From: Thiomicrorhabdus marina
GTDB taxonomy: Bacteria; Pseudomonadota; Gammaproteobacteria; Thiomicrospirales; Thiomicrospiraceae
DNA: 64,000 bases
Direction: 5' to 3'
NCBI RefSeq assembly: GCF_017571465.1
Contig: NZ_JAGETV010000001.1
Span: 1 to 64,000, forward strand
The first letter of the stretch is position 1. The number at the start of each line of letters is the position of its first letter. Shown here piece by piece: positions 12,207-14,806 of the stretch. The notes beneath the pieces are model-generated. The model was not told where the DNA came from. It was given only the letters and a program-made list of their open reading frames with translations, and did no database searches. A program made the position numbers and the translations under genes.

Positions 12207-12500
12207 AGCAAGTAACATCCTGTAACTTGAAACTGATAGATAAAAAATAAGCACTGTTACTTAAGACCGCCATTCTAACAGCCAAGCTAAAGGATTTCCC
12301 TAGCTACAACATGGATTTAGTAAATTTAGGCTTATCAATGATTAAAAAGTTACTTTTAGCCAACTTTCTCAAACCCTTCACTATTTCTTTCTATTGTTAA
12401 CAATCAACCTCAATGCACCACCAATGGCGACCCAATTAAAACGCTTCAAAATATGCTAAGATGCCCGCTTTCTCGTTTAGTCAATCAAAGGGAGACGCTG

Positions 12501-13121
12501 ATGTCAGCAACCTACACAACCACACCGGATATCGTAAGCTATGGTCTAGGCCGCCAAATGGGAGACCAACTAGCAGGCGATCCATTTGAAGGTATGAATG
12601 CAGAAGCCGTTGCACAAGGTTTGATGGACGCGCTTAGCGGCAAACCAAGTCCGATCGATCAAGAAGGTTTCGTCAAAGCTTTCCAAGAAATCAACGAAAT
12701 CATGCAAGCTAAACAAGCGGAAAAAGCCAAAGCGGCTGCGCAAGAAGGTGAAAACTTCCTAGCTGAAAATGCCAAGAAAGACGGCGTTGTGGTTCTGGAA
12801 TCAGGCCTGCAATATGAAATTATTTCTGAAGGTAACGGCGAAAAACCGTCAGCTGATTCCGTTGTACAAACTCACTACCACGGTACATTAATTGATGGAA
12901 CGGTTTTCGATAGCTCTGTAGAGCGCGGTCAACCGGCGTCTTTCCCGGTTAACCGTGTTATCGCCGGTTGGACTGAAGCGCTACAACTGATGCCGCAAGG
13001 GTCAAAATGGCGTCTATTTATCCCGCAAGACTTAGCATATGGTGCGCAAGGTTCTGGTAACAAAATCGCGCCTTACTCGGCATTAGTCTTTGAAGTAGAG
13101 CTACTGGCTATCGAACGCTAA
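12501..13121 (+). CDS. fklB: FKBP-type peptidyl-prolyl isomerase, FklB/Mip-like
   Basis: The start at 12501 is supported by GGGAG six bases upstream. The 206-residue protein has an N-terminal helical dimerisation arm (VSYGLGRQMGDQL through an Ala/Lys-rich helix). A C-terminal FKBP domain follows at about 95-205 with YHGTLIDGTVFDSSVERG, FPVNRVIAGWTEAL and IPQDLAYGAQG. This is the layout of FklB and Mip family isomerases. No signal peptide is seen, so it is cytoplasmic like FklB. It catalyses cis-trans isomerisation of prolyl bonds. It stands alone, followed by a 185-bp inverted-repeat element and a terminator. Confidence 0.92.
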   Translation: MSATYTTTPDIVSYGLGRQMGDQLAGDPFEGMNAEAVAQGLMDALSGKPSPIDQEGFVKAFQEINEIMQAKQAEKAKAAAQEGENFLAENAKKDGVVVLESGLQYEIISEGNGEKPSADSVVQTHYHGTLIDGTVFDSSVERGQPASFPVNRVIAGWTEALQLMPQGSKWRLFIPQDLAYGAQGSGNKIAPYSALVFEVELLAIER

Positions 13122-13396: not shown

Positions 13397-13561
13397 TTAT
13401 TTGAGAATGCAATTCTTCGCATAATCAGAGGCTTCATTTGCAGTCCATTCACCTTTCGCTTTTGCGTCCATATCCGCACACCACTCCGGCGAACCAACTT
13501 CCGCACTACAACCGCTTAACATGATTACCGCACCAATCATCATTGCATAAATAGTTTTCAT
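13397..13561 (-). CDS. DUF3012 small lipoprotein
   Basis: The start at 13561 has GGAAATCTT ahead of the ATG and gives a 54-residue protein. It has a signal peptide MKTIYAMMIGAVIMLSGC (lipobox LSGC) and a mature part SAEVGSPEWCADMDAKAKGE followed by WTANEASDYAKNCI. This is the DUF3012 pattern (CSPEVGS.AWC...KG.WTANEA.DYA..C). The mature peptide is only about 37 residues, anchored by the lipidated cysteine. Function is unknown. Confidence 0.85.
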   Translation of the reverse strand: MKTIYAMMIGAVIMLSGCSAEVGSPEWCADMDAKAKGEWTANEASDYAKNCILK

Positions 13562-13630
13562 AAGATTTCCTTTTATTATCTCGCTTCTCAGCACGACCTA
13601 TTAAAGCAAAGTTTACCGAGGTTAGCAGCG

Positions 13631-13820: not shown

Positions 13821-14177
13821 TTAATCAGGCCATCTACGCTGTGAAGGCTTAAGGTAAGTAACCTTTTCTTCTGTCTCTTTTTTAGCCGCTGGTTTTGCGG
13901 CGGCAGGTTTTTTAGCCGGACTACGAGTTGTTGTCTTAGCGGGACTCTTCGCAGCGGGTTTACGAGCAGGTGCTTTACGCGTTGTAGTCGCTTTTTTTGC
14001 AGTTGTTGTTTTGCGCGCTGTCGTGGTTTTAGCGGTCGTAGCTGCCGGTTTAGCAGCTTCCGCTTTTGCCGGGGCCGAAGCTTCGGGTGTCGCTTCGGTG
14101 CTTGTTTCTGTCTCTTGACCGGACTTCGCTTTACGTAAACTATCCGCTAACTTAGAGCCTGTAGTATTTGTACTCAT
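13821..14177 (-). CDS. Disordered Ala/Lys-rich protein, putative partner of the ParA ATPase
   Basis: This 118-residue low-complexity protein has three zones. Residues 1-20 look helical (GSKLADSLRKAKSGQ) and an acidic Thr/Glu/Ala stretch follows. Residues 38-100 are a histone-H1-like run of AK, TTAKK, RKP and PAAK repeats. The last ten residues are LKPSQRRWPD. Its ATG overlaps the stop of the ParA gene (ATGA), so the two are translationally coupled. ParA-type ATPases that position cargo usually work with a small, often disordered protein encoded next door that links ATPase to cargo and stimulates hydrolysis, such as McdB for carboxysomes. The basic region could also bind DNA or RNA. The partner role is inferred from the overlap and composition. 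Confidence 0.65.
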   Translation of the reverse strand: MSTNTTGSKLADSLRKAKSGQETETSTEATPEASAPAKAEAAKPAATTAKTTTARKTTTAKKATTTRKAPARKPAAKSPAKTTTRSPAKKPAAAKPAAKKETEEKVTYLKPSQRRWPD

Positions 14178-14806
14178 AGTACCTCCTCGATAATTTCATC
14201 AATCTCTTTAACTGCCGCTTCACCGCGTTTGCCCATACAGTATACGCTTAAACCTTCTACTGCGGCATTTCGATAAATCGCTCGACGGCGAACACTGCCT
14301 TTCAAGGCTGGAATATCAAATTCCTGAAGCGCTTCGGCCATCGCACTCGACAAAGCACTGCGCGGCTCCAGTTGATTAATTACTATATAAGGTTTTAATT
14401 TACGATTGCGAATTTTTGCATGTTCAATCGCATCAGCAAGACGAATACTTGCCCATAGATCAACCGGAGAAGGAAGAACAGGAATCAAAATATCATCCGA
14501 CACTTGCATTGCCAAAGACATATTGCTGTTTTCCAAAGTTGGGGGACAATCGATCACAATAAAATCGTAATCTTTTGCAAAACGCTCAGCTTCACGAGCT
14601 AGATTACCGCCAACTGCAATTACCGAAACCGGGAAAGGTTTGTCATCCGCCGAGATGCTACACCATTGTCCGGCTGAACCTTGCGGATCGGCATCAATCA
14701 CCAAAACACGGCCGCGTTGTGCCAGTCCTGCCGCAAAGTTCATACTTAACGTGGTTTTACCGGTGCCGCCTTTTTGGTTTGCAATTGAAAAAATTCTTGC
14801 CGCCAT
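14174..14806 (-). CDS. Orphan ParA/MinD-type ATPase
   Basis: The ATG at 14806 (GGA about nine bases upstream) is preferred to an in-frame TTG at 14827 because the family begins MxxxIFSIANQKGG. The protein has 210 residues. It has a deviant Walker A KGGTGKTT (12-19) with the signature Lys, a switch I/A' region DADPQGSAGQW and a Walker B-like FIVIDCPPTL. There is no N-terminal DNA-binding extension and no ParB gene nearby, so this is not the chromosome or plasmid ParA. Such ATPases bind the nucleoid non-specifically as ATP dimers and position carboxysomes, chemoreceptor arrays or other cargo. The overlapping downstream gene is the likely partner. Confidence 0.85.
   Translation of the reverse strand: MAARIFSIANQKGGTGKTTLSMNFAAGLAQRGRVLVIDADPQGSAGQWCSISADDKPFPVSVIAVGGNLAREAERFAKDYDFIVIDCPPTLENSNMSLAMQVSDDILIPVLPSPVDLWASIRLADAIEHAKIRNRKLKPYIVINQLEPRSALSSAMAEALQEFDIPALKGSVRRRAIYRNAAVEGLSVYCMGKRGEAAVKEIDEIIEEVL

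Follow-up and report, generated by a model that had tools for sequence, protein, structure and literature searches.

Two overlapping genes on the minus strand of a 64,000-nucleotide stretch of Thiomicrorhabdus marina DNA (contig NZ_JAGETV010000001.1, positions 1 to 64,000; here called the window) code, with a probability of about 96%, for alpha-McdA and a type 1 alpha-McdB, a carboxysome-distribution system that is sited off the carboxysome operon. A preliminary description of the window, made from its letters alone, had proposed that a ParA-type ATPase with a positioning role works with an McdB-type adaptor of low complexity, in which the Trp near the C-terminus is important, and the published tail signature of alpha-McdB in the adaptor bears this out. 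The new cargo that was also expected did not hold up: the cargo is almost certainly an already known one, carboxysomes, and the off-operon location has precedent, with a review reporting type 1 pairs far from the cso operon together with a type 2 McdB inside it (PMC8262871). The pair was filed as alpha-McdAB because the window's genome fits the published description of alpha-McdB except for an Arg before the Trp. According to this description, the C-terminal consensus is R(V/I)WPD with an invariant WPD, the proteins are 51-169 amino acids long, and the last 10 amino acids of Halothiobacillus neapolitanus McdB are enough for association with carboxysomes, which requires the Trp (PMC11321042). 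The N-terminal 20 residues of McdB are necessary and sufficient for the interaction with McdA (PMC12204374). Type 1 alpha-McdBs are further characterised as disordered proteins free of coiled coils.

The gene pair and its conserved ends

The open reading frames (ORFs) of the ATPase and its partner overlap as previously described, sharing ATGA at 14174-14177, with mcdB immediately downstream of mcdA (Table 1). The deviant Walker A motif noted before is present as KGGTGKTT with its lysine, and the ATPase matches NCBIfam NF041546 (ParA_partition, 'ParA family partition ATPase') with 201.7 bits at a cut-off of 180 as well as Pfam AAA_31 with 89.2 bits. ParB models of Pfam and NCBIfam gave no match in the overlapping partner or in five other neighbours scanned, in agreement with the missing ParB partner of the preliminary description, and none of the Pfam and NCBIfam models matched the partner itself. 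The latter is indeed of low complexity and strongly charged (net charge +17): its 118 residues, to be compared with the published length range, are strongly biased in composition and comprise 26 Ala, 23 Thr, 20 Lys, 11 Pro, 2 Gln and one Trp. Its tail RRWPD shares the WPD and the Arg of the consensus. What had been taken for a short folded-looking end is in fact a five-residue linear motif, and the second conserved end is a basic segment at the N-terminus.

ATPase orthologues with at least 72% identity (72-94%) were detected in 30 of the 62 family genomes, and three further genomes gave matches at 36-39%. The family-wide search for the overlapping pair with its tail, as proposed earlier, led to an ATG overlapping the ATPase stop by ATGA in all 30 orthologues and to a partner reading to a complete WPD end in 28, the remaining two being truncated at a contig end (L015) or broken by a stretch of N (L010). 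In a class sample of 369 genomes, a ParA match at E up to 1e-25 was obtained in 78. When the nearest overlapping ORF of at least 45 amino acids was taken as the partner, whatever its end, a WPD-ending partner was observed for 33/35 distinct ATPases at 70-100% identity, 17/17 at 50-70%, 29/31 at 42-50% and 16/34 below 42%, which gives 79/83 at 42% identity or above. Four ATPases in this total were missed: at L039 the contig ends, L010 contains a run of N, and at L150 and L153 the rule picked another frame, although a WPD ORF is present there with overlaps of -5 and -11. As a background, 196 of 9435 ORFs of the same size across all loci end in WPD, the partners themselves included. The window partner is not a chance ORF.

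Both ends of the partners are conserved, the basic segment at the N-terminus and R-x-WPD at the C-terminus, with a freely varying middle and a length of 50-125 amino acids (not counting partners that contain a run of N). Among 86 partners, which were pre-selected for the WPD ending so that a universal WPD there proves nothing, and one of which (L010/L036, run of N) was read in the wrong frame, Arg is found at position -5, two before the Trp, in 84, and position -4 is V/I in 74 and Arg in four. The motif [KR][LM]xx[STAG][LVIMT][RK], composed after viewing the sequences, occurs near the N-terminus of 78 of the 86 (shuffles: mean 0.7, maximum 4), and the first 30 residues are net positive in 75/85. 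A phasin-like or histone-like DNA binder was also considered from the Lys/Ala-rich middle; the partners vary in length and keep both ends.

A DUF3012 small lipoprotein and an FKBP-type isomerase are encoded near the pair, and nothing suggests that either belongs to the system. When neighbouring ORFs of at least 90 amino acids from 62 loci were clustered, with the clusters named by eye only, the FKBP isomerase appeared in 5/62 loci and a GGDEF neighbour in none of the listed clusters (at least four loci each); the DUF3012 lipoprotein is below the size limit and was therefore not included.

Co-occurrence with carboxysome genes

CsoS2, a defining protein of alpha-carboxysomes, was used as a marker for carboxysome genomes and detected in 47/62 family and 72/369 class genomes. 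In the family it is present in all 30 ATPase carriers (at least 72% identity) compared to 17 of the 32 non-carriers, and in the class sample in 62/78 genomes with a ParA match compared to 10/291 without. The partner was checked at 80 of the 81 matched places, covering 77 of the 78 genomes (G232 left out). A WPD partner was present in 65 of these 77, and 61 of the 65 are CsoS2-positive. In eleven genomes the ParA (31-40% identity) has no WPD partner, the flank available in G363 being just 260 bases long, and CsoS2 was found in none of the eleven (0/11); in G118 the contig stops at the pair, and the genome encodes a BMC-domain protein elsewhere. The concern of the preliminary description that the partner might be absent from most genomes with this ATPase was thus not confirmed for the class sample, where it is missing only beside the 31-40% ATPases of the 11 CsoS2-negative genomes and at the one contig end.

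Among the 62 genomes encoding both McdA and CsoS2, the two lie within 20 kilobases (kb) in 42 (4.4-6.4 kb in 38 of these), farther apart on one contig in 3 and on different contigs in 17, the window's genome included. If the pair positioned a new cargo other than carboxysomes, this would agree with the lack of a detected carboxysome gene in the window, and with relative G030, where McdA at 1.29 megabases (Mb) is far from CsoS2 at 0.34 and 2.66 Mb on a single contig. This explanation is nevertheless very improbable and was rejected on account of the association of the pair with CsoS2 and their frequent proximity, as seen from the 61/65 genomes and the 42/62 short distances above; it also has to contend with the alpha-McdAB signature of the pair and with the genome's own carboxysome genes on other contigs. 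The other four of the 65 genomes are all drafts and show either carboxysome-type genes next to the pair or, in another place, a piece of a BMC domain: in G109 and G219 the pair has CsoS1-, Bfr- and acRAF-like genes as neighbours, in G418, where it lies 338 bases from a contig end, acRAF- and CbbR-like genes adjoin it, and G223 has BMC only as a 39-position fragment at the tip of another contig. Including G118, a close ATPase without a CsoS2 match is found in five genomes, and a BMC domain in four of these. Matches to the carboxysome locus were obtained in 8 of 13 chosen loci, with none at L177, L051, L123, L126, L162 or in the window.

Several points weigh against the assignment as alpha-McdAB. 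The residue before the Trp is Arg in the window partner instead of V/I, and the comparison with the tested H. neapolitanus proteins was made from published descriptions. Nine carboxysome-locus protein queries gave no match within the window, CsoS2 was not matched in four class genomes that have a WPD pair (G109, G219, G223 and G418, all drafts), and one of these, G418, is listed as 100% complete and is without any BMC-domain match. Finally, both Fisher values for the co-occurrence with CsoS2 (p 7.7e-6 in the family and 2.7e-44 in the class sample) are inflated by shared ancestry.

Carboxysome loci and type 2 McdBs

In the window's genome (G000), CsoS2_M was matched on the short contigs C43 and C46 with 304.1 and 291 bits, respectively. 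A genome-wide pattern search led to two more WPD-ending proteins (L298 and L299) of 79 amino acids each, both ending RRRVWPD, which brings the WPD proteins of the genome to three, one in the pair described here and two type 2 McdBs. No ParA pattern was found upstream of the latter two, which are without the basic N-terminal segment as read from their sequence, and their contigs C37 and C77 each also carry a CsoS1D-like BMC-domain gene and a CbbR-like LysR-type gene. The genome therefore seems to hold two carboxysome loci, fragmented by the assembly; two such loci are reported for Thiomicrorhabdus sediminis in work on atypical loci that covers these genera, in whose examined passages McdA and McdB occur 0 times. 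In G030, a protein resembling those of 79 amino acids comes after a run of genes for CbbL, CbbS (named by eye), CsoS2 and CsoSCA, together with three near-identical BMC-domain CsoS1 copies (one scanned) and ferritin-like and pterin-dehydratase-like (acRAF-type) proteins. A WPD protein without an adjacent ParA was observed in the examined cso stretches of 25/30 family carriers; in the other five (G010, G038, G039, G043, G045), CsoS2 is 2.6-4.7 kb from a contig end.

As the T. marina pair is off the operon and other WPD proteins adjoin the carboxysome-type genes, alpha-McdAB might have acquired a second cargo or lost its function after leaving the operon. We regard this as still less probable than a new cargo, since McdA is 72-94% identical among the family genomes and both the N- and C-terminal motifs are intact, which argues for a retained function, and nothing seen points to a second cargo.

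Type 2 McdBs could compete for carboxysome sites, thereby tuning how many of them McdA pulls, or act independently of McdA; either role is proposed tentatively and is rather unlikely at present. The independent one is favoured by ten carboxysome genomes (G017, G023, G026, G031, G061, G177, G181, G260, G262, G295; loci L234-L236, L240, L242, L262-L265, L300) with a WPD protein in the cso stretch and no ParA match adjoining, where the hits checked included no McdA linked to a WPD protein. The partner check covered G017, G061, G177, G260 and G262, whose small ParA-like hits elsewhere are without a WPD partner; in G023, G026, G031, G181 and G295 the sole ParA hits are frames of 258-305 amino acids. 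Apparently, these ten genomes have the adaptor without its motor. As a separate observation, small ParA-like ATPases at L318, L319, L320 and L326 have a downstream neighbour whose N-terminus carries a membrane-type segment resembling LLNNGFFVLALLVGVTLYLAY, in G061, G018 and G017 and more loosely in G213.

In genus g6, 7/9 genomes encode a divergent ATPase with 29-34% identity whose partner overlaps it and ends in WPD (L311-L317); three divergent ATPases were missed by tblastn and found by pattern search. These partners probably start MVTRRKP or MVTKRTP, and the distance to CsoS2 is 9-11 kb in four genomes and 36-60 kb in three. The pair of this genus may be a diverged alpha-McdAB or an independent one.

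Table 1. Location of the alpha-McdAB pair, its terminal motifs, nearby genes and type 2 McdBs (window positions unless a contig is named)
Feature	Position	Strand	Basis
alpha-McdA, ParA/MinD-type ATPase, 210 amino acids, ATG start	14174..14806	minus	NF041546 and AAA_31 matches; family orthologues
alpha-McdB type 1, low-complexity adaptor, 118 amino acids	13821..14177	minus	ATGA overlap with McdA, both terminal motifs, published alpha-McdB consensus
Partner N-terminal basic segment SKLADSLRKAK (residues 8-18), probable McdA-binding end	14124..14156	minus	motif in partners
Partner C-terminal RRWPD, probable carboxysome-binding tail	13824..13838	minus	WPD ends in relatives; published H. neapolitanus McdB tail
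DUF3012 small lipoprotein	13397-13594	minus	
FKBP-type isomerase	12453-13121	plus	
Orphan type 2 McdB, 79 amino acids	G000 contig C37, 13474-13713	minus	genome-wide WPD pattern search
Orphan type 2 McdB, 79 amino acids	G000 contig C77, 195-434	plus	genome-wide WPD pattern search

Comparison with known systems and proposed mechanism

With alpha-McdAB type 1 of H. neapolitanus, where McdA is Hn0912, and of other proteobacteria the window pair shares mcdB directly downstream of mcdA, the deviant Walker A lysine of the ATPase, the basic N-terminus, low-complexity composition and C-terminal R-x-WPD of the partner, and carboxysome genes in the same genome; it differs in its place away from the cso operon, a variant already in print (PMC8262871), and in the Arg before the Trp. 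The orphan alpha-McdB type 2 of the cso operon, represented by the proteins on C37 and C77, has the WPD tail in common with the window partner but neither an adjacent McdA nor the basic N-terminal segment. Beta-McdAB of Synechococcus elongatus shows the same division of labour and a Trp in the C-terminal region of McdB, whereas the window partner, with its 2 Gln and its WPD end, does not have the glutamine-rich region of beta-McdB. ParF-ParG of plasmid TP228 also includes a small ParA-type ATPase, and ParF (4dzz) is the nearest solved structure to the window ATPase by sequence. ParF-ParG differs from the window pair in having plasmid DNA as its cargo and, in ParG, a partner that binds DNA. A ParA for chromosome or plasmid partition with a basic, DNA-binding partner, to which this structure, the NF041546 score above its cut-off and the charge of the partner would conform, is most improbable given that the genome holds another ParA-type gene (261-amino-acid open frame) and that those ParA relatives of the class sample that have no WPD partner (31-40% identity) belong to CsoS2-negative genomes.

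By analogy with the published work on H. neapolitanus and S. elongatus, ATP-bound McdA dimers of T. marina would bind the nucleoid, and McdB would act as a tether, with its basic N-terminal segment binding McdA and its WPD tail binding the carboxysome. Local release of McdA by McdB would then lead to a McdA gradient, which may space the carboxysomes across the nucleoid through a Brownian ratchet.

In the class sample, a WPD tail beside ParA separates CsoS2-bearing genomes from the others, with four draft exceptions that show signs of carboxysome genes. In annotation the system goes unnoticed, since NCBIfam calls the ATPase 'ParA family partition ATPase' and the partner is unmatched in Pfam and NCBIfam. 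A false lead has been closed, as a seemingly orphan ParA with a low-complexity partner and without a cargo gene in its vicinity is recognisable by a short C-terminal tail.
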